Positions 35,755-57,491 of a stretch of DNA of 64,000 nucleotides are shown piece by piece. The notes under the pieces were generated by a model. That model made no database searches and had not been told where the DNA came from. It worked only from the letters and a program-made list of their open reading frames with translations. Within the stretch, counting starts at the first letter, position 1. Each line of letters starts with the position of its first letter. The stretch spans positions 5,599,501 to 5,663,500 of the forward strand of contig NZ_CP030771.1 of assembly GCF_006088715.1 (NCBI RefSeq). Direction: 5' to 3'. This DNA comes from Streptomyces sp. YIM 121038 (lineage in GTDB: Bacteria; Actinomycetota; Actinomycetes; Streptomycetales; Streptomycetaceae). The position numbers and the translations under genes were made by a program.

Positions 35755-38700
35755 TCAGAACGGAGTCGTCACCGTCGCCGGTTCGCCCGTGCCCAGGTGG
35801 AGGAGGCCCTTGCCGGGGGTGACGGGGCCGCCGACCATGCTCCGGGAGACGCGGACGCCGATGAGGTCCCCGCTGGACGAGTCCTGCGGGGAGAGCAGGA
35901 TGCCCCGCCGCCCCTTCTTCGCGTCGACCTGCCAACCGGAGAACCCGCTGCACACGTCCTCCTCGTCCCCGGCGAGCACGAGGGCGAGGCCCTCGTCGGC
36001 CCCTCGCTGGATGATCCGCTTGAACTGGCTCGCGGCGTCGCAGTCCTCCAGGATCTCGCCGTCGTCGACGAGGACGGCGATCGGCGACCGGGGGGTCGCC
36101 GAGTCGATGGCCTCCTCCAGGTCGTCCTCGTCGATGTCGTCGCCGGTGAAGACCTTCAGGACGCCCTCGGTGCCGTCGAGCCCGCGCAGCGGGGACTGGC
36201 GGGGCGCGGCGACGACGAGGCGTACGCCCTGCGCGAGGAAGGAGCGGGCGGCGTTCATCAGGACGGTGGAGCGGCCGGACTTGGCGGGGCCCGCGACGAC
36301 GAAGGCGGGCACGCCCTCGGCCAGATCGGGCCCGTGGCCCATGAGTTCGTCGCCGCCGACGCCGATCAGGGCCCACAGCTTCGAGCGCGAGGCCTCGGGG
36401 TCGCGCAGCTCCCAGGCCTCGTCGAAGGAGATCCGGCCGGGCAGCGTGTCGACGCGGAACGGGCGCAGCCGGCGCGGCACGTCGGCGTCGCGGACCGCGG
36501 CGGCCTCGCCGATGGCGGCGAGCGCGGCGGCCTGGCCCTGCCCGGTGGCGTCCTCGGAGAGCAGGGCGAACTGCGTCTCCGTACCGCTCTCGTTGCGGAA
36601 GGCGCGGCCCGGGGGGATCTCCTCGGGCACCTTGCGGGAGGGGATGCCGAGCAGGGAGAAGTCGGAGCGGTCGGCGAGCCGCAGGCCGTACTTGTCCTCG
36701 GTGAGGGAGGAGACGCGGCCGACGAGGAGCTGCCGGTCGCCGGTGACGACCAGGTGGATGCCCACGCTCGCGCCCTCCCGCAGCAGCGCGGTGACCTCGT
36801 CGGTCAGGCTGCCGTGGTCGATCTCGCCGAGCGTGGGCAGCCAGCCCTCCCAGCGGTCGAGGAGGACCACGAGGTGCGGCAGGCGCTCGTCGGCCGCGGC
36901 ACCGGACCGCTGCTCGCCGATGTCGGCGTAGCCCTTCTCGGCGAGGAGGTCCTGGCGGCGGCCGAGTTCGCCCTTGAGCCGGTTGACGAGGCGGACCACG
37001 CGCTCGGTCTGGTTGCGGCTGACGACGGCGCCGCAGTGCGGAAGCCGGGTCAGCGCGTTGAGCGCGCCGTTGCCGCAGTCGATGCCGTACAGGTGGACGT
37101 CGGCGCACGAGTGCGTGCGCGCGAGGGAGCCCGCGATCGTGCGGAGCACCTGGGAGCGGCCGCTGCGCGGGGCGCCACCGATCATCAGGTGCCCGAAGGT
37201 CGCGAAGTCCACGGCGACGGGGCGGCGCGCCTGGTCGGCGGGCAGGTCCTCGACGCCGTACGGAGCGGGCGGCAGCGCACCGGCGGGGGCGGGCGGCGAG
37301 ACGATGGCGTCGAGCAGCAGCATCTCGCCGAGGGCGGGCAGCCAGGGGCTGTGCTGGGCGGGGACGGCGAGGGCCGTGTTGGCCTCGCGGATCGCGTCGA
37401 CGAGGACCTTCAGGTCGGTGATCTCCTCGTCCTCGCGGGCCCGTGCCCTGGGCCGGGCGGCCGTGGCGCGCCCGAGGCCCGGCCAGGTGAGTTCGTCGGC
37501 CCAGGGCGCGAGCGCCTGCGGGTCCGCGGCTCCAGGGCGGCGGCCGCCGACGCGGCCGGACTGGAAGGGCACCAGGGACGCGTGGCCGAGGCGGACGTAG
37601 GCGCGGCCGGGCGTGTTCTTGGAGATGTGCCCGGCGTCGGGCGCGTCGATGACGTCCGACGACTCGCCGCCGTCGGTGACGCGCAGGGCGATGCGCAGAT
37701 TGGTGTTGGCGCGGATCTCGGGCGACACGACACCGCTCGGCCGCTGCGTGGCGAGGAGCAGGTGGATGCCGAGGGAGCGGCCCCGCTGGGCGATGTTGAC
37801 CAGGCCGGTGACGAAGTCGGGCAGGTCGCGGACCATGGAGGCGAACTCGTCGATGACGATGAGGAGCCGGGGCACCGGCGCGCGCGTGGGGTCGCGGCGC
37901 ACCAGGTCCTGATAGTCCTCGATGTCCTTGGCGTCGGCGTCGGCGAGGATGTGCTCGCGCCGCTTCAGCTCGGCGCCGAGCGACTCCAGGGCGCGTTCGA
38001 CGAGGTGCGCGTCGAGGTCGGTGACCATGCCGACGGTGTGCGGCAGCTGCACACAGTCCTTGAAGGCGGAGCCGCCCTTGTAGTCGACGAGGACGAACGT
38101 CATGTTCTCGGGCGTGTTGGCCACGGCGAGCGCGGCCACGATGGTCTGCAGGAGCTCCGACTTGCCGGATCCGGTGGTGCCCGCGATCAGGCCGTGCGGC
38201 CCGTCCTTGCGCAGGTCGATGCCGAACGGACCGTCGTACGACTCGCCGATGACGGCCGTCGTGGACTGTCCGCCGGACTGCCAGCGGGCGGTGATGGCCT
38301 CGCGGGACGGCGGCTCCAGCTGGAGCACGTCGAGCAGCCGGCTGGCGCCGGGCAGGGCCGAGTCCTCGGTCTCGCCGCTGATGTCGCGCAGCGGCGACAC
38401 GGCGCGCGCGAGGCGCAGGCACCAGGCGGGCGAGACGAAGTCGGGGCGTACGCCGAGCAGGCGCCGGGCGCCGGTCTGCTCGACGCGCAGCCGCAGCTCG
38501 TCGGCGGTGTCCGCCCGGCCGGCTTCCGCGTCGGCGGTGTGCCAGGCGTGGAAGGAGGGGAAGCCGCCGCCTGCCGGGGCGGTGGCGGGCCGGGGCGGAA
38601 TGCCGCCCGCCCCGGGCGCGGCCCCGGCCGCCGGGTCCGCGAGCTCCCGGGCCCTGGGCTCGGCCACGACGAAGGCCTGGCACTCGCCGGGCAGGAAGCG

Positions 38701-40344
38701 CTGCTCGGTGTCCAGGCAGAGCGCGTAGATGCCCACGGCCGGGCCGTCGCGCAGGATCCGGACGACGCCGGGCAGCGACCGGAGGCGTCGCGAGCCGTCC
38801 CAGACGACGACGATGTCCGGGTCGGTGAACCCGCCGGTCTGGCCCCGGGTCTCCTGCTTGACCTTCTCGCGCGCGTCGAGGACCTGCGTCAGCTCGCCGA
38901 CGCGGGCGCCGACGGTCTCGGCGTCCGTGCCGATCAGCACGTTGACGTCCTGGCCGCCGCCGGGGCGGGCGTGCGGCAGCCAGCGCAGCCAGTCCCAGGA
39001 CTCCCAGGCGGAGTTCTCCGTCAGGACGTAGAACTGCACGTCCATCGGGCTGTGCAGCGCGGCGGTCTGCGCCACCGCCCAGCGGCCGAGGGCCGCCGCC
39101 GAGTCGCCGGGCCCGGCCAGGCCGATGACGCCGAGCTGCTTCAGGCCGAGGGCCACCGGGGCGTCCTCGATGGTCCAGGTGACCTGGCGCTTGTGCTCGT
39201 CCTGCTCCGGGTCGTCGAGGACGACGTCGGACGGCAGCGTGCCGGTGCCGAAGCGCAGCAGCAGATGGTCGGCGTCGGTGCGGCGCCGCTCCCACAGGCG
39301 GGTGCGCGGGCCGGTGGCGAGGGTGAGGACGGCCGCCGGGTCGGGGGCCGCGTGGCGCCGGTCGAGCCGCTCGGCGACCAGGGCGTCCTGCGCGTCCTTC
39401 TCGATCCGCTCCTTGGTCTCCTTGTACTCCTTGACCTGCTTGGCGTGGGACTTGCGGCCGTGCTTCTTGTCCAGGAAGTAGTTGCCGAACAGCATGATCG
39501 GGCTCAGCCCGGCGATGATGAGGTAGTACCAGCGGTTGAAGATCATCGCCGCGATCACGGCGCCGACCAGCGGGAACAGGGCCATCAGCCACGGCAGCGG
39601 CCGGGCCTCGAAGTCGCGCGGCGGCGACGGCAGACGGAACGTGGTCTGCCGCTCGGGCGGACGCAGCCGCGGCGGCCGGTTGTAGTCGAGGCCCGCGCCG
39701 TCCTCGGACCACTTGAGGGCCGCGTCGGGCGGCGCGTACCGCACGAGCTCGAACAGGGTGTTCCCGGCGGCGAGCTGCGAGCCGAGGGGCCAGGCGCCGT
39801 CCTCGGCGCCGGTGAACTTCGCCCCGTCGAGGGTGACTTCACCTCCGCCCTCTTCGCCGCCGCGCACGACCAGTCGGCAGGTGCCGTCCGTGGCGACCGA
39901 CAACGTCAGGGCCCGAGCGGCGAGTTCGGGGTCGTCGACGCGGACGTACGCGGCCGGGCCGCTGCCGATGTCGTACCGGCCGATGCCGAGCCGGTGCACG
40001 GCGCCCGCGGCCGGGCCGCCCACCACGCGCAGCTCGACCAGGCCGGTCGGCTCGCCGGGCACGCAGCCCGCCGGGTCGTGGAGGCTGACCACGGCGCCCT
40101 CGCGCAGCGGCGAGGTGACGACCGTGGCGCCGGGGTCGACGGCGTACCCGTCGACGTAGAGCACCGGCGCGCCGTCGGGCGTCGGCTGGTGCGGGCCGAG
40201 GGGGATGACCTGGGCGCCGCTCCGGCCGGCCGTGCGGGCCAGTTCGGCGGCTATGTCCCGGACGGAGGAGTCGGGATCGGCGTCGAGCACGACGTCGGCG
40301 GAGCCGCCGCCGATCGGATCGACGACGGTCAGTGTCAGACGCAC
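35755..40344 (-). CDS. FHA-domain EccC-type FtsK/SpoIIIE ATPase (type VII secretion-like)
   Basis: 1529-residue membrane ATPase. The N-terminal ubiquitin-like/FHA-like region spans about 1-225 (VELRVVGGPAAGAVHRLGIGRYDIGS). Two membrane helices lie near 249-290 (LPWLMALFPLVGAV, YYLIIAGLSPIML). Three FtsK/SpoIIIE modules follow. D1 has a canonical Walker A (GTTGSGKSE, ~residue 720) and Walker B (LLIVIDEF). D2 (GGAPRSGRSQ, ~1056) and D3 (AGPAKSGRST, ~1351) are degenerate. This is the EccC/YukBA plan, the motor of type VII secretion. GTG 40344 follows GGGAGGA. No EccB/D/E genes are nearby. A divergent WXG100-like gene starts 365 bp away. Confidence 0.9.
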   Translation of the reverse strand: MRLTLTVVDPIGGGSADVVLDADPDSSVRDIAAELARTAGRSGAQVIPLGPHQPTPDGAPVLYVDGYAVDPGATVVTSPLREGAVVSLHDPAGCVPGEPTGLVELRVVGGPAAGAVHRLGIGRYDIGSGPAAYVRVDDPELAARALTLSVATDGTCRLVVRGGEEGGGEVTLDGAKFTGAEDGAWPLGSQLAAGNTLFELVRYAPPDAALKWSEDGAGLDYNRPPRLRPPERQTTFRLPSPPRDFEARPLPWLMALFPLVGAVIAAMIFNRWYYLIIAGLSPIMLFGNYFLDKKHGRKSHAKQVKEYKETKERIEKDAQDALVAERLDRRHAAPDPAAVLTLATGPRTRLWERRRTDADHLLLRFGTGTLPSDVVLDDPEQDEHKRQVTWTIEDAPVALGLKQLGVIGLAGPGDSAAALGRWAVAQTAALHSPMDVQFYVLTENSAWESWDWLRWLPHARPGGGQDVNVLIGTDAETVGARVGELTQVLDAREKVKQETRGQTGGFTDPDIVVVWDGSRRLRSLPGVVRILRDGPAVGIYALCLDTEQRFLPGECQAFVVAEPRARELADPAAGAAPGAGGIPPRPATAPAGGGFPSFHAWHTADAEAGRADTADELRLRVEQTGARRLLGVRPDFVSPAWCLRLARAVSPLRDISGETEDSALPGASRLLDVLQLEPPSREAITARWQSGGQSTTAVIGESYDGPFGIDLRKDGPHGLIAGTTGSGKSELLQTIVAALAVANTPENMTFVLVDYKGGSAFKDCVQLPHTVGMVTDLDAHLVERALESLGAELKRREHILADADAKDIEDYQDLVRRDPTRAPVPRLLIVIDEFASMVRDLPDFVTGLVNIAQRGRSLGIHLLLATQRPSGVVSPEIRANTNLRIALRVTDGGESSDVIDAPDAGHISKNTPGRAYVRLGHASLVPFQSGRVGGRRPGAADPQALAPWADELTWPGLGRATAARPRARAREDEEITDLKVLVDAIREANTALAVPAQHSPWLPALGEMLLLDAIVSPPAPAGALPPAPYGVEDLPADQARRPVAVDFATFGHLMIGGAPRSGRSQVLRTIAGSLARTHSCADVHLYGIDCGNGALNALTRLPHCGAVVSRNQTERVVRLVNRLKGELGRRQDLLAEKGYADIGEQRSGAAADERLPHLVVLLDRWEGWLPTLGEIDHGSLTDEVTALLREGASVGIHLVVTGDRQLLVGRVSSLTEDKYGLRLADRSDFSLLGIPSRKVPEEIPPGRAFRNESGTETQFALLSEDATGQGQAAALAAIGEAAAVRDADVPRRLRPFRVDTLPGRISFDEAWELRDPEASRSKLWALIGVGGDELMGHGPDLAEGVPAFVVAGPAKSGRSTVLMNAARSFLAQGVRLVVAAPRQSPLRGLDGTEGVLKVFTGDDIDEDDLEEAIDSATPRSPIAVLVDDGEILEDCDAASQFKRIIQRGADEGLALVLAGDEEDVCSGFSGWQVDAKKGRRGILLSPQDSSSGDLIGVRVSRSMVGGPVTPGKGLLHLGTGEPATVTTPF

Positions 40345-40708
40345 GCTCGTCCTCCCATGGCCCCCCGTGACCGCTTCCGGACCACGGCCCACAGTGGAAG
40401 CGACGATAACCGCTCACTCCCGGCCGGGGGCAACGGGCTGTCGGCGCACGCTTTCCACCGGCAACGCCCGGCAATCGCTGCACTTCCACCCCGGCACGCG
40501 CTCATAGCAGAGCTGTGACTCAACGGGGGTATTCCCTCCATGACCACACCCGTAAGCTGCTGGCGCACTGGCGGACGGGCGCACCGGGTGTGTTCGGGCG
40601 CAACCGCCGTGCCGACAGCGTGATTCGCGCCGTTTCAGGTGCGATTCGCACCAATCAGTGGAGCCACGGGGGCTGGCCCTGCGGCGCGTTGGATAGGGAG
40701 TGGGCTTC
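40345..40708. other. Divergent control region between EccC-like gene and WXG100-like gene
   Basis: No convincing gene. GC content is locally lower. A 15-bp perfect palindrome, GGTGCGA-T-TCGCACC, lies at 40638-40652, 56 bp before the WXG100-like ATG. The related half-site TGATTCGCGC sits at 40621-40630. GGGAG at 40696-40700 is the ribosome-binding site for the small gene. Confidence 0.5.
40638..40652. promoter_or_regulatory. 15-bp palindrome upstream of WXG100-like gene
   Basis: GGTGCGA and TCGCACC arms around a single T, perfectly symmetric. The position 56-70 bp upstream of the start fits an operator or activator site for the orphan type VII locus. Binding protein unknown. Confidence 0.5.
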
Positions 40709-41008
40709 ATGTCCAAGGACCTTGATGTCACATACCAGGACATGCGGGATGCGGCCAAGCATGTCGTCAAGGAGAAGGACAAGCTCAAGGAGAAGCTCGA
40801 CGGCCTCCGCAAGTACATCGCGAACCTCGTCGAGACGGGCTACGTCACCAAGAGCTCCTCGAAGGCGTTCGACGAGAACTTCGACGAGTTCGTGCGCGGC
40901 GCCAAGGACATGCTCGACGGCCTCGACGGCATGGGCGACTACCTGACGACCGCCGCGGACAAGTTCGAGCAGATCGACGACGAGCTGGGCAAGGCCGCGC
41001 GGGGCTGA
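40709..41008 (+). CDS. WXG100/EspC-like small helical protein
   Basis: 99-residue, almost entirely helical, acidic protein with no signal peptide. It is the size of WXG100/EspC family secretion substrates. Two helices flank TGYVTKSS, and the second helix carries FDENFDEFVRGAKDMLDGL followed by LTTAADKFEQIDDELGKA, the layout F..F..L...L..aa..(Y/F)xxxD seen in EspC-like proteins. The strict WXG is absent (TGY instead). ATG 40709 is 8 bp after GGGAG. It is divergent from the EccC-like motor and followed by an 18-bp perfect-stem terminator, so it is transcribed alone. A secreted partner or substrate role is inferred. Confidence 0.7.
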   Translation: MSKDLDVTYQDMRDAAKHVVKEKDKLKEKLDGLRKYIANLVETGYVTKSSSKAFDENFDEFVRGAKDMLDGLDGMGDYLTTAADKFEQIDDELGKAARG

Positions 41009-41052
41009 CCCCCGGACCCGGCGGCGGCAGCCGCGGCAGGGGTCGCAGCAGC

Positions 41053-41095
41053 AGGGGCGGGGGGAGGGGCAACTGCCCCTCCCCCCGCCCCTTTT
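41053..41095. terminator. Perfect 18-bp-stem terminator
   Basis: 18-base arms (41053-41070, 41075-41092) with no mismatch around AACT, beginning AGGGGCGGGGGG and followed by TTT. It lies between the WXG100-like gene and the convergent operon end at 41121 and should stop transcription strongly at least on the plus strand. Confidence 0.85.
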
Positions 41096-41120
41096 GCCCG
41101 CCCTGCCCGCCCTCTCGGCC

Positions 41121-41696
41121 TCAGACCCAGCGCAGCGATGCCGCGATCGCCTCGCACAGGCCGCCCAGGGAGCTTTCGACACCGCTCAGCGGTACGGAGA
41201 AGGCGAGCAGCAAATACCCTGCCTTTCCGGGCATGTTGACGTACAGGTCCAGGGTCGTCGCCGTCGTGACGCGGACCGTCTCGCCCGCGGGAAGCCGCGT
41301 CACGGACACCTTCGTGGCCGCGCCCCGGTGCTCGGTGACGCTCCGCGCCAGTTCCTGCGGGGTGACGTACAGCGCGCCGGACATCGGCAGCAGGGACACG
41401 AGCAGCGTGGCCGGGGTCGCGCCCGTGTCGCTGATCTCCGAGCGCAGGAACAGCTCGATGGCGCCCTGGGCCGCGCCGCTCTCCGCGGTGTTGCGCAGGG
41501 TGGCCCACAGCCCCCGCGCGGCCTCCGCGGACATGCCGCGCCGGGCCGCCTGCCGGTCGGCGAACGTCTTGAGCTGGGGCCGCCAGCGGTCGAGCGTGAG
41601 GTCGATGCGGAACCAGTCGCGGGGGACGAGCAGCCGGTAGTCCTCCGGCGGCACGTCGGCCCCGACGCGTTCCGTTCGCGGGTCCGCGCCGGTCAC
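41121..41696 (-). CDS. Conserved protein, PsbP/LpqN-like chaperone-type fold (copy 1)
   Basis: 191-residue protein without signal peptide or membrane helix. YRLLVPRDWFRIDLTLDR at the start, the central LPAGETVRV, and the end LDLYVNMPGKAGYLLLAFSVPLSGVESSLGGLCEAIAASLRWV follow the same order as two neighbouring proteins (genes at 41693 and 44854). The alternating-strand pattern with a final amphipathic helix resembles PsbP/Mog1/DUF1795-like folds, but that comparison is by eye. The GTG at 41696 overlaps the upstream stop (GTGA). Last gene of the first cassette operon. Confidence 0.7.
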   Translation of the reverse strand: MTGADPRTERVGADVPPEDYRLLVPRDWFRIDLTLDRWRPQLKTFADRQAARRGMSAEAARGLWATLRNTAESGAAQGAIELFLRSEISDTGATPATLLVSLLPMSGALYVTPQELARSVTEHRGAATKVSVTRLPAGETVRVTTATTLDLYVNMPGKAGYLLLAFSVPLSGVESSLGGLCEAIAASLRWV

Positions 41697-42430
41697 TCCG
41701 CGCTCTCCTCTCCGTCGGCTACGTCGGCTACGTCAGCTGCGTCGGCTATGTCGACGGGGCGGCCCTTGCTGTCCACCGGGTTCCCGGCGGCGTCGAAGAG
41801 CTGGAGGCTCCGGCAGACGCCCGCGAACATGCTGGAGAAGACGTCCCAGCCCTCCATCGTCGGCGTGGACATCTCCAGGACCACGGCGGTGCCGTTGGAC
41901 AGCGGCACCTGGACGTTGATGAAGGACGTCCAGAACGGCTCCTCCTCGCCGGACGGCGTGAGCGACCCGTCGACGGCGGCGGGCCGCGAGCCGATCCAGG
42001 ACACGCCCGGCCCGCACGGCAGGGACAGCTCCTCCACCTCGCCACGGCCGAGCGCGCGCAGCGCCCGCGCGATGCCCTCCACCGGGCTGAAGCGGGCCTC
42101 GTCCGGCAGGTCGGCGAGCGCGATGGACACGTTGGCCGTGCAGCGGACGTCGTCGACCTCGGTGACGACGAACCCGGCGTACTGCACCCCGGCGTCGACC
42201 AGTTCGTCGTACGTGGACCCGACCATCGCGGCCCACAGGTACTGCATCTCGGGCGTGGACCTGGGCTGGATCTCCCGGGCCAGGCCGATGAGCTCGTCGG
42301 CGAGCTCGTCGATGTCCTCGGCCTCCGTCGGGAGTTCGAAGAACCCTTCCGGCATGATCCACCGGACGTGGAACAGCTCGCCGTCGGCCGCGGTCGCGAC
42401 CCCGGTCGTCTCGGACACCACGGAACTCAT
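41693..42430 (-). CDS. Conserved protein, PsbP/LpqN-like fold (copy 2)
   Basis: 245-residue cytoplasmic-looking protein. HVRWIMPEGFFELPTE opens the domain, LSLPCGPGVSWIG sits in the middle, and VQVPLSNGTAVVLEMSTPTMEGWDVFSSMFAGVCRSLQLFD closes it. The same landmarks (P-x-G-F, LPCGP, STxxMxxWxxF) recur in the 220-residue protein at 44854, so the two are paralogues. The C-terminal tail is DIADAADVADVAD, encoded by four 9-bp tandem repeats (41714-41749). ATG 42430 overlaps the upstream gene by four bases. Function unknown; a dedicated chaperone for the cassette's WXG proteins is one option. Confidence 0.7.
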   Translation of the reverse strand: MSSVVSETTGVATAADGELFHVRWIMPEGFFELPTEAEDIDELADELIGLAREIQPRSTPEMQYLWAAMVGSTYDELVDAGVQYAGFVVTEVDDVRCTANVSIALADLPDEARFSPVEGIARALRALGRGEVEELSLPCGPGVSWIGSRPAAVDGSLTPSGEEEPFWTSFINVQVPLSNGTAVVLEMSTPTMEGWDVFSSMFAGVCRSLQLFDAAGNPVDSKGRPVDIADAADVADVADGEESAE

Positions 42431-43071
42431 CGGGGGCCTTTCCCATCGGGCGCGCCGGGCGGACCTCCGCGCCGGTCTGCGGGCATGTCCAGGTCGGCGG
42501 CGCCACCGTCGCCGTCGTCGGTGGCGGCTTCGGGGCGGTAGCGGGCCGCGAACGGATACGGGCCGTAGTGCGGGTACGCGTCCGGCAGCGGGGCCCCGCC
42601 GTCGCGGGCGAGGTGCGCGATCCTGCGGTACGCGGCCGCCCGCGCCCGCACCCGCTGGCGCGGTCGGCTGCCCCAGTGCCGGGTCAGCGTGACGGCGTAC
42701 AGGACGACGACGAGGACGCCGACCGCGCCGCACAGGCCGTAGTACAGGTACTGGTCCCGGCCCGGCTCCCAGTGCTGCGCGTAGGCGCCCCAGCCCGCGA
42801 ACAGCGCGAAGGCGACGAGCGCGGTCGGGACGCCGAGGCGCACTCCGGCCCGGTGCAGCGCCGCCTCGTCGAGGTGGCGGAGGCGCAGCAGCTCAAGGAC
42901 CGCCGCGTCGTCGAGGAAGTCGAACCGCAGCCGGTGTCCCTCGGCCTCGGCGGCCGCGCGCGCGGCGGGCACCGCGGCGAGCACGGCGCCCGGGACCAGC
43001 GACCGGACGAGGTCCCCCCGGGCCCGGTACTCGCCGGGCCCGGGGGGCCGATCGTCGAAGGGCGCGGACAC
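42427..43071 (-). CDS. Two-TM membrane protein of the first cassette
   Basis: 214-residue protein with two predicted helices (about residues 84-100 and 112-132: ALVAFALFAGWGAYA and YGLCGAVGVLVVVLYAVTL), a cytoplasmic N-terminal half rich in Ala/Arg/Leu, and a Pro/Gly-rich polar tail. The GTG at 43071 starts 2 bp after the upstream TAG, and the stop overlaps the next gene by four bases. I do not recognise a family. Its place between a WXG-like substrate candidate and the chaperone-like proteins suggests it is a membrane partner of the cassette. Confidence 0.65.
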   Translation of the reverse strand: MSAPFDDRPPGPGEYRARGDLVRSLVPGAVLAAVPAARAAAEAEGHRLRFDFLDDAAVLELLRLRHLDEAALHRAGVRLGVPTALVAFALFAGWGAYAQHWEPGRDQYLYYGLCGAVGVLVVVLYAVTLTRHWGSRPRQRVRARAAAYRRIAHLARDGGAPLPDAYPHYGPYPFAARYRPEAATDDGDGGAADLDMPADRRGGPPGAPDGKGPR

Positions 43072-43073
43072 GG

Positions 43074-44285
43074 CTACTGCGCCATCGCGGTGCGGAAGGG
43101 CGTCGGCGAGGGCGTGGGCGCGGGGCGCGGCGAGGGCCGCGGCAGGTTCGCCGGCTTCACCGGGTCGCCCGGGTCGCCGGTGCGGGCGCCGTCCTTGCCC
43201 GTGAAGATCTTGTACAGGGCGCTGCCGAACCCGGCCGTCTTGATGCCCGCGGTGATCTTCTCGCCCGCGATGGGCATCTGCTTCGCCTTGGTGAGGATCT
43301 TGTTGGTGAGGTTCACGGCGATGCCGTTGTTGAACTTGAACCCCACGCCCTTGAGCGCGCCCAGGCCGCTGAAGCGGACCCCGCGCAGCTTCGCCAGGCC
43401 CTTGAGGCCCTTGAGCGCGCCGAACCCCTTCAGGGCGCCGAGGCCCGGCATGACGCCGAGCACGTCCAGGCCCAGCTTCAGGAGGTTGAGCTTCCCGCCC
43501 CGCTTGAACATGTCGTACGCGTGCCCCGCGAGCGCCGCCGCGCTGCACACCACGGACAGGGCGGCGAAGACCGGGGCGAGCACTTGCAGCGGTGGCACGA
43601 ACGTACAGATCACCGCCAGGATCGCGAAGATCGCCGACAGGTTCGAGAACCGGTCGGCCCAGTCCGCCAGCCAGTTCATGAAGCCGCCCGGGTCGCGGAC
43701 GCCGTCGTGGTGGATGATGTTCTTGATGTGCTTGGCCGCCGCGCTCGCGGCGTCGTCGCGGATGCTCTTCGCGCGCGCGATGTCGCCGTGGCAGTCACGG
43801 ATGACGCTCATCGCCTCGTCGCGCTGCTTCTCCAGGCGCGTGCGGTCCCCGATGTCGTCCTTGCTCGGCACGGTGCCCTTGTACTTGTCCAGGTCGCCGA
43901 CCGCGGTCTGCTGGTCGGAGCGCGCCGCGCGGTACTTCTCCAGGGCCTTGTCGGCCACCTTCTGCGCGCGGTACAGCTCGCTGGCGTACTCCTTGGACTC
44001 CGTGTCGCCCTCGACGACCTTCGTGCCCAGGGCCTTGGCGGCCTCGTCGTACCGTTCGAAGGAACGCTTCAGCCGGCCCGACGTGCCGTCCGCGATCTCG
44101 TGGAAGGCGCGCCCGGCGTCGCTGTCCCAGCTCTCCACCGACGAGAGGGCCTTGATGTTGCGGGCCTGCTTGTCGATCTCGTCGGCCATGTTCCGCAGCT
44201 CCTTGCCGAGCCGCGCGACCTCGTACGGATCACCGGGAACGGGGTCGCCGTCGTGCAGCGGCTCCCAGTCGGTCGGGCGCGTCAC
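43074..44285 (-). CDS. WXG-motif protein with central membrane segment (cassette 1)
   Basis: 403-residue protein. Residues ~20-210 are long helices with SVESWDSDAGRAFHEI near residue 50, a W-x-x-x-A-x-x-x-F variant of the WXG turn. Heptad-rich segments run to DDAASAAAKHIKNI. Residues ~220-270 contain two hydrophobic helices (SAIFAILAVICTFVPPLQ, APVFAALSVVCSAAALAG). The C-terminal third is Gly/Leu/Lys-rich (GLGALKGFGALKGLKGLAKL) and ends in a Pro/Arg tail. The layout parallels the 418-residue gene at 46444. No catalytic toxin motif is recognised. The GTG at 44285 overlaps the upstream stop (GTGA). Confidence 0.7.
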   Translation of the reverse strand: MTRPTDWEPLHDGDPVPGDPYEVARLGKELRNMADEIDKQARNIKALSSVESWDSDAGRAFHEIADGTSGRLKRSFERYDEAAKALGTKVVEGDTESKEYASELYRAQKVADKALEKYRAARSDQQTAVGDLDKYKGTVPSKDDIGDRTRLEKQRDEAMSVIRDCHGDIARAKSIRDDAASAAAKHIKNIIHHDGVRDPGGFMNWLADWADRFSNLSAIFAILAVICTFVPPLQVLAPVFAALSVVCSAAALAGHAYDMFKRGGKLNLLKLGLDVLGVMPGLGALKGFGALKGLKGLAKLRGVRFSGLGALKGVGFKFNNGIAVNLTNKILTKAKQMPIAGEKITAGIKTAGFGSALYKIFTGKDGARTGDPGDPVKPANLPRPSPRPAPTPSPTPFRTAMAQ

Positions 44286-44602
44286 TTCTTCCCCTTGGCT
44301 TCCTTGGCTTCCTTGCGGGCGTTGCGGAGGGCCTCGGCCAGCTCGTGGTCGACCTTGTCGTACGTGTCCGCCGCGGAGTCGGTGAACTTGGCGAGCTTCT
44401 CGATGTCCGCCATCAGCTTCTTCCGCGTCTTCTTCCACGTGCCGGAGAAGTCGTCGAAGACGTCCCGGAGCTTCTTGCTGCCGAGCGCGTCGCCGTACTC
44501 GTCGGCCGGGTTGCTGTTCTCCTTGAACTCCCGGTGAATCCGGAACAACGCGTCCGAGCAGTCCCGGATCATCCCGAGATCCGCCCTCGTCCTGTCACTC
44601 AT
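44282..44602 (-). CDS. WXG100/EspC-like small protein (cassette 1)
   Basis: 106-residue helical protein beginning MSDRTRADLGMIRDCSDALFRI. DVFDDFSGTWKKTRKKLMADIEKL near residue 48 is the F..W..L turn region, and TYDKVDHELAEAL near residue 80 gives a Y-x-x-x-D motif like the type VII export signal. A Lys-rich tail follows. It is the first gene of the five-gene operon ending at 41121, with ATG 44602 and a GTGA overlap into the 403-residue gene. An upstream GGACCG-AG-CGGTCC palindrome (44647-44660) may be its operator. Confidence 0.7.
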   Translation of the reverse strand: MSDRTRADLGMIRDCSDALFRIHREFKENSNPADEYGDALGSKKLRDVFDDFSGTWKKTRKKLMADIEKLAKFTDSAADTYDKVDHELAEALRNARKEAKEAKGKK

Positions 44603-44646
44603 CGGTTCCCCCGTACCTGCTCGTCCCGTACGCCTGACGGACCTCC

Positions 44647-44660
44647 GGACCGAGCGGTCC
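44647..44660. promoter_or_regulatory. GGACCG-AG-CGGTCC palindrome
   Basis: Perfect six-base arms 45 bp upstream of the first cassette's start codon. The surrounding 44603-44853 stretch has no gene and is AT-richer around 44680-44700, as expected for the promoter. Confidence 0.4.
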
Positions 44661-44853
44661 TACGAGGGCCCGGACAAGAGGAAATAAGGTATCCGCGACC
44701 ATCGAGATCTCGCCAGACACACCCGTGGCAACAGGGCGCGATATGCCGTGACTTAGCCGCCCCAAGCGGACAGGGCTGTCGCCAATTTGTTTCTTAGTGG
44801 GGGAGGGGGGCGGACAATTCCGCCGTCGTCCGGGGGAGCCGCCGTCACGTCGC

Positions 44854-45516
44854 TCAGGCGTGGTCGGGGGCGTCGGGATCGGTGAACGAGGCCGTCTGGA
44901 GGATTGCGGTGAGCATGTCGCAGAACTCTCCCCAACACTGCATGGACGCGGTACTGAGGGTGAAGACCGCCATGTAGGGGCCGGTGGGGAAGGGCAGGTA
45001 TACCTGGATCTGCCCCGTTATGATCTTTGGCTGTTCCTCGGATGCCGTCGTCTGCTCGGCAGCCACGGAGAGCTCGCGCATGGATACGCACGAAATGGCC
45101 GGCCCGCAGGGCAGATCGAGCCAGCGCGCGTCATTCAGGGGGTCGCCGGAGAGCACGGCCAGCATTCCTTGAGCGGCCGTCTCCGTATCGTCGTGCCGCG
45201 ATGCGCAGACGGCCACCGACAAGGAGCAGTGGGCCACCCCCTCCTCACCCAGACCGAAGATTCCCAGACCTGAGTAGAGCAGCCCGGCGGTCGACAGCAG
45301 CGTGGTGACCCGTTCGTAGTACGGGGCGGCCGACCCCCAGAGTTCGGCGTCTCCCCCCGGGTAGAGGCCGCGTACGAACGCGGCAGCGGACTCCGGGCGT
45401 TCGTCGGCCGAGGCGTCGACGGGAACATCGTGGAATCCGTCCGGCACGACGAACGTCAGCGGAGGAAGAAGGACCGGGGCGATGTCCTCGCCCGTCGGCT
45501 GCGGTGCCGAGGTCAT
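44854..45516 (-). CDS. Conserved protein, PsbP/LpqN-like fold (copy 3)
   Basis: 220-residue protein with no signal peptide. LTFVVPDGFHDVPVD, LDLPCGPAISCVSM and QVYLPFPTGPYMAVFTLSTASMQCWGEFCDMLTAILQTASF align by eye with the 245-residue protein at 41693 (same P-x-G-F, LPCGP and STxxMxxWxxF landmarks). It ends the second cassette operon, the position its paralogue holds near the end of the first. ATG 45516 overlaps the upstream stop by four bases. Function unknown. Confidence 0.7.
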   Translation of the reverse strand: MTSAPQPTGEDIAPVLLPPLTFVVPDGFHDVPVDASADERPESAAAFVRGLYPGGDAELWGSAAPYYERVTTLLSTAGLLYSGLGIFGLGEEGVAHCSLSVAVCASRHDDTETAAQGMLAVLSGDPLNDARWLDLPCGPAISCVSMRELSVAAEQTTASEEQPKIITGQIQVYLPFPTGPYMAVFTLSTASMQCWGEFCDMLTAILQTASFTDPDAPDHA

Positions 45517-46430
45517 GGATTCCCTCCCTCCGGAGCTACGTCGGCACCGGACGGATCCAGATGCTCGGTCAGCGGGATGCGGCTGCCGTTCGAGAGCGGA
45601 ACCTGGAGGTGGACGGCGACGACTCCGCCGGAGAGGAGTTCCAGTTGTGGTTCCTCCTCGACAGGGTGCACCTTGCCGAGTGACCGTCCCGCTTCAAGAG
45701 GCGGATCGGTCATCAATGCGGCTACGCGCGCACGCTGTTGAGGCGTGAGGCGGTCACGCGTGACGGGTCTTCTCTCTCCGCGGACATGACTCACGAGCCG
45801 GTCAGCATCACGGACGCACCAGCGGGTCCAGGACTCGTCGGTGAAGCGCAGCCGGACATCGGACGGACCTTGGGAGAATGTCATCAGCTCGGCGCCTGCC
45901 ACATTGCTTCGGGGCAGGCTCCACAGTTCCTGCGCCGAAGTCGGATCACTTCCGGTGGGGAGGCCGAGAATCACCAGACGCCGATCGGTCAGCAAAAGGT
46001 CGGTGCGGTACCCCTTCGGCCGCCGTGCGGGGTCGAGTTGCCAGGGAAGAGTGCGGGCCACGGCACCCGTCCCGGCATACACCACGGGAAAGTCATCGAC
46101 TTCGAAATGCGGCTCCCGCGACTGCCCCAGCCCCTTCGGCTCCTTCACCAGGGAGCCGCCGGGACCAGCGGCATTCGAGATCGCGTTGATCAGCCGTGGG
46201 ACTCCGAGCAGAACGACGTCCAGGACCCGCACGCCGGACCGCCCGCCCTTGTCGCGGGGCTGGAAGCCGGGGCCGGGCGGCCATCCGCTGCCGGTCAGCT
46301 CCGTTTCGATGTCCCGCCCGTCGGGGTCCCGGAAGGAACGCAGCCCGGCGACCTTCGGGGCAAGCCCCGTGGCGAAGGCGATGTCGTGCCGGGTGTGCAC
46401 GGCTTCTCCGTGCGGCAGTTGCCAGTCCAC
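45513..46430 (-). CDS. Conserved protein with PH-like segment (cassette 2)
   Basis: 305-residue soluble protein. YRTDLLLTDRRLVILGLP near residue 165 matches the LTxxRL(V/I)I strand pair of bacterial PH-like/GRAM domains. RFTDESWTRWCVRDADRLVSHVRGE follows. The C-terminus carries VHLQVPLSNGSRIPL, very like VQVPLSNGTAVVL in the 245-residue paralogue of cassette 1. That may be a remnant of the same domain. The GTG at 46430 (AGAGGA upstream) is preferred; a longer frame to 46478 would overlap the upstream gene by 35 bp. Confidence 0.6.
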   Translation of the reverse strand: MDWQLPHGEAVHTRHDIAFATGLAPKVAGLRSFRDPDGRDIETELTGSGWPPGPGFQPRDKGGRSGVRVLDVVLLGVPRLINAISNAAGPGGSLVKEPKGLGQSREPHFEVDDFPVVYAGTGAVARTLPWQLDPARRPKGYRTDLLLTDRRLVILGLPTGSDPTSAQELWSLPRSNVAGAELMTFSQGPSDVRLRFTDESWTRWCVRDADRLVSHVRGERRPVTRDRLTPQQRARVAALMTDPPLEAGRSLGKVHPVEEEPQLELLSGGVVAVHLQVPLSNGSRIPLTEHLDPSGADVAPEGGNP

Positions 46431-46443
46431 AGCAGCTGTCCTC

Positions 46444-47700
46444 TCAGTGTGCCTTCGCTGATTCCTCAAGCCGGTCACCGGGGTTCATCAGTTCTTGGGC
46501 GTGAAGGGATATGGGGACCGCCTTGAGACCGATCTTGATGCCGGCGTCGATGCCCCTGCCCAAGGTGCTCATGGAGTCGATGTTCCGTAGACCGGGAATT
46601 CCCTTGGTGCCGACCAGCTGCCCGCCACGGATCGTCTGCTCGGTCAGCAGGTTCATCCGGTTCATGAGGCCGCCCTCGGTCTTGATCACAGCGCCGAGCT
46701 TGTGGCCGCCGATCGTGATCTGCCGCCCTCGGATGGTGCGCGTCATCCCACCGATGACGTTGTCACCCATACCCACGACGTTCCGTCCGACGGTGTCCAT
46801 GCTGTGGAAACCCCGGCCGAGCTGGGTGGCACGTACCGTCGCCTGGGCGCGGCTCGCCACCTTGACGCCCCTGGTGAAGGCACTGACTCCAGGGATCGTC
46901 CCCAGGGCGTCGAACCCGATGGACAGCCAGTTCACCTCCGCGCCGGCGGCTTTGGCCGTGAGGTGAGTCACCAGCGCGAGTCCGCTCGTCAGCACCGCGG
47001 CCGTCGCGAGGACGGCGCCCACCGGTTCGAAGGGCGCGGTGATGATGGCGAGCATGCCCAGTACACCGCTGAGGTCACTCAGCAGGTCACCGATCAGCTT
47101 GATGGTGTCCGCGTGGTCCTTCAGCCACTTCCCCGTGGCGTCCCACGCGTCCGCGATCCCCTTGGTGAGCCGGTCCCAGAAGCCGGGCTCGTCGGGGGCG
47201 ATGTCGCCGGCCTTGTCGAGCTCCCGGGTGATGGCGTCGGCGGCACGCGCGTAGCGGTCCTCCAGGTCGTGGACCTGGCCGGTGACGTGGGTGACGTCAC
47301 CGGAGGCCTCGGCCAGGGCCTTGCTGCCCTTGCCGTCGGCCTGCGCCTCGGCCCTGCCGCGGGCCTCCAGCTTGTCCCCGGCGGCCTTCTCGAGCCGGTC
47401 GGCCTCGTCCTGGAACTCCTGGAGCTCCCGGGCCCACCGGTACAGCGCCCGCGACGCCCTGCCGAAGGACTCGTGGCTCTTGCGGATGAGCGGGGCCACG
47501 TCCGCGCCGACGTACTCGACGAACGCGCGCGCGGCCTCGCCCTTCCAGGCCCCGCACTCGATGCGCTCCAGCTCCCGTACGGACGTGCCGAGTTCACGGG
47601 CGAGGCCGCCCAGCTTCCGGGCGAGGTCCCGGGTGTCCTGGACGTCGCCGGGCGTCGGGTCCCAGCCGATGTGCGGGAAGGCGGGGCGTCCGCCGGACAC
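46444..47700 (-). CDS. WXG-motif protein with central membrane segment (cassette 2)
   Basis: 418-residue protein. C49-GAWKGEAARAFVEYVG contains a full W-x-G followed by A-x-x-x-F, the canonical WXG100 turn. Residues ~20-175 are helical, FWDRLTKGIADAWDATGKWL follows, and a hydrophobic stretch at ~200-255 (LLSDLSGVLGMLAIITAPF, VGAVLATAAVLTSGLALVTHL) is followed by a ~160-residue C-terminal domain rich in Gly, Thr and Ile. Architecture and gene position parallel the 403-residue gene of cassette 1, but the C-terminal domains differ. The GTG at 47700 lies one base after the upstream stop. It may be a secreted effector or a membrane-anchored channel partner. Confidence 0.72.
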   Translation of the reverse strand: MSGGRPAFPHIGWDPTPGDVQDTRDLARKLGGLARELGTSVRELERIECGAWKGEAARAFVEYVGADVAPLIRKSHESFGRASRALYRWARELQEFQDEADRLEKAAGDKLEARGRAEAQADGKGSKALAEASGDVTHVTGQVHDLEDRYARAADAITRELDKAGDIAPDEPGFWDRLTKGIADAWDATGKWLKDHADTIKLIGDLLSDLSGVLGMLAIITAPFEPVGAVLATAAVLTSGLALVTHLTAKAAGAEVNWLSIGFDALGTIPGVSAFTRGVKVASRAQATVRATQLGRGFHSMDTVGRNVVGMGDNVIGGMTRTIRGRQITIGGHKLGAVIKTEGGLMNRMNLLTEQTIRGGQLVGTKGIPGLRNIDSMSTLGRGIDAGIKIGLKAVPISLHAQELMNPGDRLEESAKAH

Positions 47701-47701
47701 G

Positions 47702-48010
47702 TCAGCGGTCCCGCCGCGGCGGCCGGGCGGACTTCAGGGACGCGGCGAGCGCCAGGTCCAGCTTGCCGAACTCCTCGTCGATCTTGTCGATCATCCTGAC
47801 CGCGCCGCCGGTGTGCTTGCGGAGCTGCTTGATGCCGTAGCCCCACTCGTCGGCGAAGTCGTGGACCTCCTCGACGAGCCGCCCCGCGCCGACGGCCGTC
47901 GCGTCGGTGCCGTGGAGGACGCGGCGTGCCGCGTCCATCCGGTCGCTGATCGTGGTGAAGGTCTTCCTCAGGTCCTCGAAGACCGTGCCGTCCAGGCGTA
48001 AGTCGCTCAT
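47702..48010 (-). CDS. WXG100/EspC-like small protein (cassette 2)
   Basis: 102-residue helical protein. HDFADEWGYGIKQLRKHTGG near residue 50 holds F..xW-G-Y-G, and MIDKIDEEFGKLDLALAASL near residue 73 mirrors the Y/F-x-x-x-D..LAxAL end of the cassette-1 small protein. Arg-rich C-terminus. First gene of the second cassette operon (48010 to 44854), starting at ATG 48010. An ATCAGCG-N4-CGCTGAT palindrome lies 45 bp upstream. Confidence 0.7.
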   Translation of the reverse strand: MSDLRLDGTVFEDLRKTFTTISDRMDAARRVLHGTDATAVGAGRLVEEVHDFADEWGYGIKQLRKHTGGAVRMIDKIDEEFGKLDLALAASLKSARPPRRDR

Positions 48011-48054
48011 GCTTCGGTACAGGCTCCTTCAGCTCGCGTGGAGCGTCCGACGTT

Positions 48055-48072
48055 ATCAGCGGATTCGCTGAT
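48055..48072. promoter_or_regulatory. ATCAGCG-GATT-CGCTGAT palindrome
   Basis: Perfect seven-base arms in the 189-bp spacer between the second cassette and the exported-protein pair. The site is AT-richer than its surroundings and is a good operator candidate for the cassette promoter. Confidence 0.45.
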
Positions 48073-48199
48073 GTGAACATCGGGATGCGCCAAGGCAGTT
48101 GGAGTCCGTATGCGTCAAGTGGAGAGAGGGGGAGGGCGCGTTCGGGGCGAGGGGAGGCGCAGAGGTGCCGCTCGGCGGACAGCGCGCCCCTCGAACCCC

Positions 48200-49246
48200 T
48201 CAGCGGTTCACCGACTGGACCTCCTCCACCGCCACCGGCTGATCCGAGCCGAACGAGCCGCTCGGCAGCCCGTTGGGCCCCGCGTTGCCCGTCCCCGTCC
48301 AGCTGACCTTCCAGGTGATCGTGGCCTGGAGCTTGAACGTCCCCTTGCCGGAGGAGCGCAGATAGGTGAGGCCGCACGGCGGGGTCTCGTCGGACCTGCC
48401 CTTGCGGTAGGGCGTGCCGATGGAGCCGTCGCCGTGGGGCGCGCACTCGCCGGACGCGGGGTGCGTGCGCGCGTCGGGCGTGCCGGGGGCGAGCCGCAGG
48501 GCGTCGGGCCGGGCCGTGGTGGTGGCCCGCAGGTCGAGGCCGGGCACGTCGACGGAGGCCGTCACGGACACCGGCTTGAACTCGGCCTCGTCCAGCCACG
48601 CCCACGTGGGCAGGTTGACCTTGGTGGTGTCCTCGGGCGCGAGGCTGACCTTCGTGTCGGGAAGGCGAAGGCGGTTGTAGGCGAGCTCGGCGAGGAGCTC
48701 GGGGGTGAGGGCGTTCGCCACCGGCGGCGGGTCGCCGTTCTCGACCCAGAAGGGCTCCTTGTCGCACTTCTGCGCCGCGTCCTCCAGCCACCGGTCCGGG
48801 TCGCGCACGGCCACCCACCAGTTGCCCTCGTCCTTCTCCTTGAGGTTGTAGTTCTTGTACTCGCCGTCCTTGTACTTGCTGCGGAACTGCGCGACGGCGG
48901 CCTTCGCGTAGCTGTGCTGACCGGGGAAGTTGACGGTGCTCTCGTAGTTCCGCTCGACCTGGTCGCGGAACTGCTCGGCGGTGCGCGGCTCGTACCAGCA
49001 GGCGGGCGGCGACCAGTCGCCGACGGGCTTGAGGGCGCCGCCGCCCCCGCTGTCACCACCGCCGCGCGTCGCGCCCGAGAAGCGGATGACGGACACGATG
49101 TCCTGCCCCTCGCGGCCCCCGCCGGAGTCGGCGTTCCCCTGGGAGCCGCTGCCGGGGGATCTGTCCGCGTGCGCGGGGCCCGGCACCAGCAGCAGCGTGG
49201 CGGCGGCCGTCAGCCCGGCCACCGCCCACGACCTGCGTGTGATCAT
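48200..49246 (-). CDS. Secreted protein of unknown function
   Basis: 348-residue exported protein with a Sec signal peptide (RRSWAVAGLTAAATLLLVPGPAHA, cleavage after about residue 27). A Gly/Ser/Asp linker is followed by SPPACWYEPRTAEQFRDQVERNY, EKDEGNWWVAVRDPDRWLEDAAQKC, ELLAELAYNRLRLPDTKVSLAPE and a C-terminal beta-rich part with CAPHG, CGLTYLRSS and ATITWKVSWTG. Four to five cysteines suggest disulfides. I do not recognise a named family. ATG 49246 overlaps the lipoprotein stop (ATGA), so the two are co-translated and may form an extracytoplasmic pair serving the adjacent cassettes. Confidence 0.7.
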   Translation of the reverse strand: MITRRSWAVAGLTAAATLLLVPGPAHADRSPGSGSQGNADSGGGREGQDIVSVIRFSGATRGGGDSGGGGALKPVGDWSPPACWYEPRTAEQFRDQVERNYESTVNFPGQHSYAKAAVAQFRSKYKDGEYKNYNLKEKDEGNWWVAVRDPDRWLEDAAQKCDKEPFWVENGDPPPVANALTPELLAELAYNRLRLPDTKVSLAPEDTTKVNLPTWAWLDEAEFKPVSVTASVDVPGLDLRATTTARPDALRLAPGTPDARTHPASGECAPHGDGSIGTPYRKGRSDETPPCGLTYLRSSGKGTFKLQATITWKVSWTGTGNAGPNGLPSGSFGSDQPVAVEEVQSVNR

Positions 49247-49911
49247 GGCGTGCACTTCGCGTTCCCTCTCTCCGAGCTGAGCATCGTGGTCTGCCAGACG
49301 CCTTGCTTGTTCTTGTCGAGACGGGTGTTGTAGAGCACGTACGACTTGTCGGTGACAGGCGTCTTGTCGGTCTTTCCGGTCTTTCGGCTCTTGGTGTACG
49401 CCTTGCTTTCGTCGGCGCAGTACCGAATGCCGACGGCGGTTTTTCCGTGAGGTGTGACCTGGGGTGCGTAATAGCGCGTGGTGCCCGTGATGGACAGGCC
49501 GTTCTTCTTGAATCCGGCGATCCATTCGGCGGCTCCGACGAGGGCTTCTCCCCGGTAGTAGAAGGGAATGGCCGCGGATTCGGACGCGCCGTCGACGATG
49601 GCCGCGTCGGTCGCGTCGATGCGCCGCCGCGCGTCGGCGAGCGCGGCGTCCTTGGCCGGATCGCCGGTCTTCCAGCTCTCGAAGACGTTCTTCACATCGG
49701 CCGGGAGATCGGCCGCGGGGCGGTCGGCGGGGCCGTCCGGGGGCGCCGTCGACGACGGCGCGTCCTTCTTCTTCCCGCCGCCCTCGTCCGCCCCGGCGAT
49801 TTTCCCGCCGTCCTTGGCGCCGTCGGAGCTTTCGTCCCCGCCGCAAGCCGTCAGCAGCAGAGCCGCGGTGACGGCGAATGCGGCGGCAAGGGGCACAGTG
49901 CGGCGCTTCAC
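49243..49911 (-). CDS. Lipoprotein with NTF2-like domain
   Basis: 222-residue lipoprotein. The GTG at 49911 (or ATG 49953) leads into RRTVPLAAAFAVTAALLLTAC, whose lipobox LLTAC places the lipidated Cys near residue 23. A Gly/Asp/Lys and Pro/Ala linker follows. The C-terminal half (AAIVDGASESAAIPFYYRGEALVGAAEWI, GLSITGTTRYYAPQVTPHGKTAVGIRYCADES, YVLYNTRLDKNKQGVWQTTML) looks like an NTF2-type cone fold by strand order. It precedes and overlaps the secreted-protein gene. Function not known. Confidence 0.72.
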   Translation of the reverse strand: MKRRTVPLAAAFAVTAALLLTACGGDESSDGAKDGGKIAGADEGGGKKKDAPSSTAPPDGPADRPAADLPADVKNVFESWKTGDPAKDAALADARRRIDATDAAIVDGASESAAIPFYYRGEALVGAAEWIAGFKKNGLSITGTTRYYAPQVTPHGKTAVGIRYCADESKAYTKSRKTGKTDKTPVTDKSYVLYNTRLDKNKQGVWQTTMLSSERGNAKCTP

Positions 49912-53080: not shown

Positions 53081-53099
53081 AAGGGCGAGAAGACCACCC

Positions 53100-55237: not shown

Positions 55238-55241
55238 GCAC

Positions 55242-57163: not shown

Positions 57164-57239
57164 ACCCCACCCTCCGCTCCCACTCCAAGGGCGGGCCCCT
57201 ACGAGCCCCCCCATCCTGCTTCCTGAGAGGACCCTCACC

Positions 57240-57491
57240 ATGAACGGACGGAACGTCAGCACCGGCATCCCGGCGGTCGACTTCCTCGTGACCTTCCTGC
57301 GGACCCGGGTGCGCCGCGCGCGCTCCGGCGAGCTGGACCGGGGCGCGTCGGCGGTCGAGTGGGTGATCATCTCGGCGGTCGTCGTGGCGATCGTCGGCGT
57401 GGTCGCCGCGATCATCAACAACGCCCTCAAGGGCGGTGCCGACAAGGTCGGCGACTGCATCGAGGGCGCCGACGCGGGCAAGACCTGCTGA
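57240..57491 (+). CDS. Flp-type pilin
   Basis: 83-residue prepilin. The class IVb processing site is G35|A36 in RGASAVEW, with Glu at +5 (E40) and a hydrophobic stem WVIISAVVVAIVGVVAAII. The leader (~35 residues) is longer than the usual Flp leader and starts with an extra hydrophobic patch. The mature tail ends KGGADKVGDCIEGADAGKTC; the two Cys (C73, C83) could cross-link. It is the major-pilin candidate of the Tad locus, made by TadA/B/C and cleaved by the peptidase at 62.3 kb. ATG 57240 follows GAGAGGA. Confidence 0.88.
   Translation: MNGRNVSTGIPAVDFLVTFLRTRVRRARSGELDRGASAVEWVIISAVVVAIVGVVAAIINNALKGGADKVGDCIEGADAGKTC

Follow-up and report, generated by a model that had tools for sequence, protein, structure and literature searches.

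A putative stand-alone type VII secretion locus in Streptomyces sp. YIM 121038, with a predicted ubiquitin-like domain at the N-terminus of its motor ATPase

Organisation of the locus and architecture of its motor ATPase

A stretch of 64,000 nucleotides (hereafter the window) from the 11.1-Mb, two-contig genome of Streptomyces sp. YIM 121038 carries a candidate type VII secretion system (T7SS) locus. It comprises a motor ATPase of EccC/EssC type, a core protein of the WXG100 family, a transmembrane Ser/Thr kinase and two cassettes that hold putative cargo, partner and accessory genes (Table 1). Gene starts were set by codon-usage scoring and overlaps; the ATPase gene, the open reading frame (ORF) with the top coding log-likelihood in the window, probably starts at 40344 rather than 40392. 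It is divergent from the core WXG100 gene and convergent with the kinase gene. Beyond the ATPase, eleven minus-strand genes run from 49911 to 41121 in the order lipoprotein, secreted protein and then the two cassettes, with six 4-bp overlaps (those of the lipoprotein and secreted protein genes and of the cassette A partner and cargo genes included), one 35-bp overlap and one 1-bp gap. The only larger gaps in this run, of 189 and 251 bp, each precede one of the two EspC-like genes. The ubiquitin-like domain of the ATPase, the accessory genes and the adjacent kinase go beyond the original prediction, which was made from the sequence without database searches.

The EccC plan that had been proposed for the ATPase, namely an FHA-like region, two hydrophobic segments and three FtsK modules of which the first alone keeps an intact Walker A, was confirmed by profiles and motifs. 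Besides an FtsK/SpoIIIE match in Pfam (204.5 bits), the best NCBIfam match was EssC (534.6 bits), ahead of EccCa (413.9 bits against a cut-off of 509) and EccCb (324.9 bits), all three scores lying below their own equivalog cut-offs. Residues 106-202 gave an FHA-type match to PF16697 (Yop-YscD_cpl; E 1e-5, 26.1 bits against a cut-off of 33.2), the two hydrophobic segments were seen by eye at about residues 258-303, and residues 223-460 align with EccC3 of ESX-3. The first module carries GTTGSGKS at residue 722, while the second and third have GGAPRSGRS and GPAKSGRS, the Walker A lysine of the third being replaced by arginine. Among proteins of solved structure, the sequence search led to EccC of T. 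curvata, YukB of B. subtilis and EccC of mycobacteria, with FtsK far behind.

Residues 1-95 of the ATPase correspond to a beta-grasp, ubiquitin-like (Ubl) fold, on which a sequence profile, an AlphaFold2 (AF2) model of moderate confidence and a fold search concur, and the domain was matched in 144 of the 296 genomes of the class. An EsaB/EccD-type domain that is usually separate therefore appears to be fused to the motor here. This predicted fusion bears on a 2006 statement that, in actinobacteria, the YukD domain invariably occurs joined to a protein with 12 transmembrane (TM) segments (PMC1779556), and it would put the question of how EsaB/YukD and the EccD domain act on the motor into a single polypeptide. 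In the titles, abstracts and passages of the open-licence literature, no description was found of this locus, of a Ubl/ATPase fusion or of Mog1-like cargo accessories in type VII systems.

The kinase shows the K, HRD and DFG motifs by eye, followed by a Pro-rich linker, one TM segment at about residues 388-412 and an extracellular domain of about 130 aa. This extracellular domain was found convergent with the ATPase and within 1.2 kb of it in 51 of the 77 loci with room for it, 2.5-3.4 kb away in 9, and was not found in 17. The phosphothreonine site of the FHA domain is degenerate, the strict pattern being present in none of the 68 orthologues tested, and we have therefore lowered our expectation that the kinase may control the motor through phosphothreonine. 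The strict pattern does occur in loci L147, L148, L149 and L151 and in a second protein of this genome, and appears intact by eye in L145; kinases adjoin the ATPase in L145 and L147, both on branches with an intact FHA motif. The second Ubl-FHA protein of this genome (C1:3943247-3946573, or L017 from 18248 into L018; 1,108 aa as called) has no Walker A and no predicted TM segment. Its gene is divergent from those of two Ser/Thr kinases, presumably pkaA/pkaB, in a neighbourhood read as prfB-ftsEX-smpB, and matches to it in frames of about 1,130-1,410 aa occur in many other Streptomyces. It is possibly a soluble pseudo-ATPase scaffold for kinases.

Table 1 Features of the type VII-like locus (window coordinates)
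Feature	Coordinates	Strand	Evidence or remark
Membrane Ser/Thr kinase, 561 aa	33909..35594	+	Pkinase 7.2e-37; candidate EssB/TsdD-like partner
Ubl-FHA-TM-EccC/EssC ATPase, 1,529 aa	35755..40344	-	Profiles, model, motif reading
ATPase N-terminal ubiquitin-like domain, residues 1-100 as modelled	40045..40344	-	
Core WXG100 protein, 99 aa, TsxA/EsxA candidate	40709..41008	+	PF06013 63.6 bits
Cassette A Mog1/PsbP-fold accessory, 191 aa, Eag-chaperone-like or immunity-like	41121..41696	-	AF2 and fold searches
Cassette A second accessory, same broad family, 245 aa	41693..42430	-	hhalign f7-f9 probability 96.4
Cassette A small membrane protein (family f24), 216 aa, candidate immunity protein	42427..43077	-	
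Cassette A T7SS-signal cargo, 403 aa, hydrophobic hairpin in the middle; C-terminus variable, with no known enzyme domain	43074..44285	-	PF21725 1.5e-10; cargo cluster 2
Cassette A WXG/EspC-like partner, 106 aa, C-terminal YDKVD	44282..44602	-	PF10824 20.9 bits, below cut-off
Cassette B accessory, Mog1/PsbP-like set by clustering, 220 aa	44854..45516	-	Same cluster as 41693-42430
Cassette B accessory, family f21, 321 aa	45513..46478	-	Pfam: none above cut-off
Cassette B T7SS-signal cargo, 418 aa, contains WKG	46444..47700	-	PF21725 4.8e-4, below cut-off; cluster 0
Cassette B WXG/EspC-like partner, 102 aa	47702..48010	-	Clusters with WXG100 and EspC-like genes
Secreted protein, 348 aa, signal peptide by eye, near cassette-operon head	48200..49246	-	Best match in 53/80 loci
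Lipoprotein, 222 aa, lipobox LLTAC by eye, operon head	49243..49911	-	Best match in 41/80 loci

Separation of the motor from FtsK and from ESX

Among the matches listed (120 of 1,607), the named orthologues of the ATPase are from Streptomyces, the nearest being that of S. spectabilis (92% over residues 1-640). The S. coelicolor orthologue, which we take to be SCO4508, is named an 'FtsK/SpoIIIE domain-containing' or 'cell division' protein in databases; in the passages of the literature available to us, this locus tag appears in one paper, as a promoter source. Such names ('cell division protein FtsK'), together with the FtsK/SpoIIIE domain, would fit a DNA translocase with a role in cell division or conjugation. 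However, the EccC/EssC matches stand far above those to FtsK, only the first module keeps Walker A, the protein has Ubl and FHA domains, and a WXG100 gene is present in 73 of the 80 orthologous loci (the best 80 of 169, one of them titled Kitasatospora aureofaciens), making this explanation very improbable. The core WXG100 of the window, the sole match to PF06013 over the cut-off of 27.3 bits in the genome, is the best match in all 73 and lies on the strand opposite to the ATPase in 72.

Trees were built on the first ATPase module, both of them unrooted and with long branches. In tree 1, 26 FHA-EccC rows group (support 88/94, not starred) apart from YukB, FtsK and eight T7SSa-type rows (100/99). 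In tree 2, from which FtsK, the second Ubl-FHA protein of this genome and all masked rows had been dropped, the eight T7SSa rows split from 23 FHA-EccC rows and YukB at 100/100, with YukB placed at an unresolved fork among the FHA-EccC rows. The first module is 46-94% identical to those of other FHA-EccC members keeping Walker A, 35-38% to Streptomyces T7SSa EccC, 34% to YukB and 31.5% to the FtsK/TraB-type protein of the same genome. Given the unrooted trees and long branches, we claim of its position that the motor, judged from sequence, is not T7SSa and not FtsK. The ATPase, whose grouping with chromosome-segregation FtsK would have refuted the original prediction, is nearer EccC/EssC by profiles, sequence search and tree, and an identity as an FtsK translocase was rejected on profiles and tree.

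It had also been proposed that this set may borrow the main ESX membrane complex of the host. Profiles of EccB, EccD and EccE matched nothing in this genome, while they were positive in 31, 32 and 30 (three weak) of the 36 other genomes of the genus, respectively. The absence of eccB/D/E, noted earlier for the locus, thus holds genome-wide by profile searches, and the borrowing of a host ESX complex was therefore rejected for this genome. A motor search of the genome returned the window gene, one of FtsK type and a relative that neighbours two kinases, and nothing else; that relative, the only other EccC-like gene found, has no Walker A. The absence of mycP likewise holds for the locus, but a mycosin-like protease over its family cut-off (331 bits) lies about 3.5 Mb away at C1:2111171 (L019:9166-10416), among called genes that are not ESX.

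In the same motor search, Streptomyces T7SSa EccC proteins of the relatives score about 250-270 bits, and matches of more than 380 bits were called FHA-EccC. On this basis FHA-EccC is present in 17 of the 36 other genus genomes, in all 5 that lack EccB and in 12 of the 31 that have it (Fisher 0.016; the genomes are non-independent). The persistence of the motor in all five other EccB-less Streptomyces and the lack of EccB/D/E matches here speak against the set being an accessory of a host ESX (T7SSa) complex; related cassettes on the ESX contig of another genome (G008) and the mycosin-like protease are the points in its favour, and we regard it as hardly tenable. Gene content, co-occurrence and phylogeny point instead to a separate and smaller export system, the other possibility that had been raised.

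Cargo cassettes and their turnover

The cassette A cargo matches T7SS_signal at 41.8 bits (cut-off 27) and that of cassette B at 20.5 bits, below the cut-off. One hundred cargo proteins, two of them from the window, fall into 17 clusters at 42% identity, and in 87 of the 96 with a called upstream gene, that gene encodes a small partner and has the same orientation. T7SS_signal was matched in 16 of 19 cargo representatives at E 0.01, three single-member clusters, whose cargos are small or cut, having been left out. At least one cargo was called in 68 of the 80 loci, the 12 without including some short contigs, and in 62 of the 68 loci with at least 9 kb of flank. The cassettes thus co-occur with the ATPase, whereas the original prediction had allowed for the case that they never do.

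Clustering across loci gathered 179 small partners, three of them from the window. Of the three WXG100/EspC-like proteins predicted there, all were found and share one single-linkage cluster; the cassette A partner falls short of the EspC cut-off (23.5 bits), that of cassette B has no T7SS Pfam match, and the literal W-x-G motif is nearly absent from the family (1 of 179). Similarly, the two larger proteins described as WXG-motif membrane proteins proved to be T7SS_signal cargos, one over and one under the cut-off, but W-x-G lies within the first 120 residues in only 32 of the 100 cargos. A C-terminal [YF]xx[VIL][DE] motif is present in 162 of the 179 small proteins, compared with 16 of the 633 remaining called proteins that are 70-260 aa long.

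The loci with sufficient flank hold 31 different cassette-type sets. Among pairs of loci with ATPases at least 95% identical (34 pairs, 24 loci), one has the same cassette set and 20 have no type in common; at 90-95% identity the corresponding numbers are 8 and 33 of 61 pairs. When cargo-less loci are counted too, the same set is found in 1 of 37 and 8 of 68 pairs, respectively. Cassettes therefore turn over fast.

The first accessory of cassette A was modelled with an AF2 pLDDT of 89.2, and fold searches led to the Mog1/PsbP fold of type VI secretion system (T6SS) Eag chaperones and of some T6SS immunity proteins. Its strong matches are in 12 Streptomyces, all with the same ATPase type. A search of its profile against PDB sequences gave no trustworthy match, and the Eag family in Pfam, which we take to be DcrB/DUF1795, had no match at E 0.1 in 32 accessory members, so that only the fold is in common. 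Soluble followers of the linked families f7, f9, f14, f32, f59 and f81 (hhalign probability 91-99) occur in 13 of the 17 cargo clusters, and f21 follows 12 of the 21 cluster 0 cargos. Several cargo clusters have a small membrane protein of their own (f24, f25, f36, f37, f39, f49 and f77); f24, with a predicted TM segment in 13 of 13 members, follows 13 of the 18 cluster 2 cargos and none from the other 16 clusters. That the Mog1/PsbP-fold accessories are immunity proteins, like Tsi3 and Tli4, rather than chaperones would be compatible with the rest of our interpretation; yet their linked families follow cargos of most clusters, while the small membrane proteins are cargo-specific, and the cargos resemble Eag clients in their membrane hairpin, for which reasons we consider this assignment unlikely, though a serious contender.

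Several related arrangements were seen elsewhere. An orphan cassette of the same genome (C1:3439821-3442720; L172:9822-12721), which the T7SS_signal search had missed, consists of a WXG partner, a 444-aa cargo and two accessories of the Mog1-like set, with no ATPase in the 20-kb stretch analysed around it. In G008 two related cassettes (L173; G008:C301) lie on a contig with EccB, EccD and EccE, and no FHA-EccC was found in that genome; cassettes may therefore move between type VII motors. In a sub-branch (L134, L136, L140 and L142) FHA-EccC is accompanied by a large protein with one TM segment, by genes of WXG type and by cargos of 804-1,649 aa, very large and most of them cut, in which no toxin domain was recognised, and by a sigma-factor-like gene, by eye, in three of the four. 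Tad pilus-like genes adjoin the cassette operon of the window at 52349-57491 (RcpC/CpaB-type below the cut-off, T2SSF over it, CpaE by eye); in genome G011 five cargo genes and one cargo fragment flank a Tad pilus operon on both sides, and a 2024 survey reported Tad genes beside T7SSg and T7SSh (PMC11217815).

Comparison with known systems and proposed function

The locus combines an EccC/EssC-type ATPase with a WXG100 protein, the general criterion for a T7SS. Like T7SSd of Olsenella and Bifidobacterium (TsdA, C, D, H and I; PMC11217815), it has an actinomycete FHA-bearing TsxC-type ATPase, a WXG100 protein and a membrane Ser/Thr kinase, with no separate ubiquitin-like gene recognised in either. 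It differs in its degenerate phosphothreonine site and in the Ubl domain fused to the ATPase, T7SSd being taken here from its published description. No large TsdI-like gene (Sec signal, Ig-like, C-terminal TM) is present among the called genes of the window, the rest of the genome not having been searched. Garrett, Higginson and Palmer (2024) reported no ubiquitin-like protein for T7SSd and did not mention Streptomyces (PMC11217815). With T7SSb of Bacillota (EssC, EsaB, EssA, EssB and EsaA), the locus shares EssC as best profile, a degenerate FHA, a kinase-type membrane partner and effector cassettes with small partners. However, the partner has active-kinase motifs, the EsaB-like domain is fused and there is one FHA-like domain rather than a tandem pair; the Pfam and NCBIfam names obtained for the locus genes include no EssA, EsaA, EssB or separate EsaB, for which no dedicated search was made. 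The locus would work like T7SSb and T7SSd, yet we file it under neither, since not all of their defining features were recognised here. Streptomyces T7SSa/ESX (EccB-E, EsxA/B) has in common with it an EccC-type motor and WXG100 proteins, set against the missing EccB, EccD and EccE and the low first-module identity given above.

Two further likenesses concern the cassettes. T6SS prePAAR effectors with Eag chaperones (SciW, EagT6) also place a Mog1/PsbP-fold protein beside a membrane-hairpin cargo, in contrast to the type VII context here. LXG toxins with Lap partners likewise have a small helical partner directly upstream, an N-terminal targeting domain, a variable C-terminus and an immunity-like gene downstream, whereas the present cargos carry T7SS_signal (PF21725) instead of LXG, are accompanied by a Mog1-like accessory and include no toxin family in this locus type.

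Taken together, it is proposed that the locus is a self-standing minimal T7SS of Streptomyces and relatives, distinct from ESX, which exports polymorphic, probably membrane-active effectors, a reading to which we assign a probability of roughly 0.58. The small partner would pair with its cargo and offer the ATPase a signal in the form of the C-terminal [YF]xx[VIL][DE] motif. Gating or activation of the motor may fall to the core WXG100, and the fused Ubl domain would do the job of a separate EsaB or EccD domain elsewhere. The Mog1/PsbP-fold accessory, like the Eag chaperones of T6SS effectors, may cover the membrane hairpin of the cargo until it is exported, or else it may neutralise the cargo, with the cassette-specific small membrane protein as a putative immunity factor. 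Competing bacteria are the most likely targets of the exported proteins, which would act chiefly at the membrane, and enzyme-bearing toxins may be exported by related systems. Signalling in place of export is possible.

What weighs against this proposal is that the toxin-family scan was positive in none of the 19 cargo representatives; we accordingly lowered its probability and raised that of an exporter with surface or self-recognition proteins as its cargos, which would serve development or kin sorting and have the accessories solely as chaperones. The high polymorphism of the cargos fits kin recognition too, and the ESX of Streptomyces has been suggested to serve development rather than virulence (PMC8401907). 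The cargo-specific small membrane proteins, together with a cargo that bears an RNase A toxin domain and lies next to a related ATPase, nevertheless fit an effector-immunity plan better, and non-weapon cargos seem to us unlikely, if worth weighing. This toxin cargo (locus L139, in genome G020 of the same genus) is a 577-aa protein beside an FHA-EccC relative and WXG genes, with T7SS_signal at 27.2 bits (cut-off 27) and an RNase A toxin domain at 8.6e-19. Of the ten divergent cargo or cargo-like proteins scanned, no other showed a toxin family, and an NCBIfam scan of cassette B gave nothing useful. A 2025 paper reports alarmone-synthetase toxins beside Streptomyces type VII genes, with an LXG one in Amycolatopsis (PMC12691689).

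More tentatively, and somewhat short of an even chance in our judgement, the effector-exporting locus may be one version of a class-wide actinomycete type VII motor with a built-in ubiquitin-like regulator, the Streptomyces version dispensing with EccB/D/E and receiving hairpin effectors from Eag-like chaperones in convergence with type VI. A built-in Ubl domain, if true, would explain why no separate ubiquitin-like protein has been found for T7SSd. Streptomyces are major antibiotic producers; if the effector reading holds, the genus has another type VII system, independent of the first, and in it a large reservoir of polymorphic effectors and immunity-like genes that have yet to be studied.

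Elsewhere in the window, an Rfam scan gave no match at gathering thresholds, and ARAGORN placed a tRNA-Ala (CGC) at 27394-27466, inside the well-scoring coding ORF 26997-27956, which is probably a false call.

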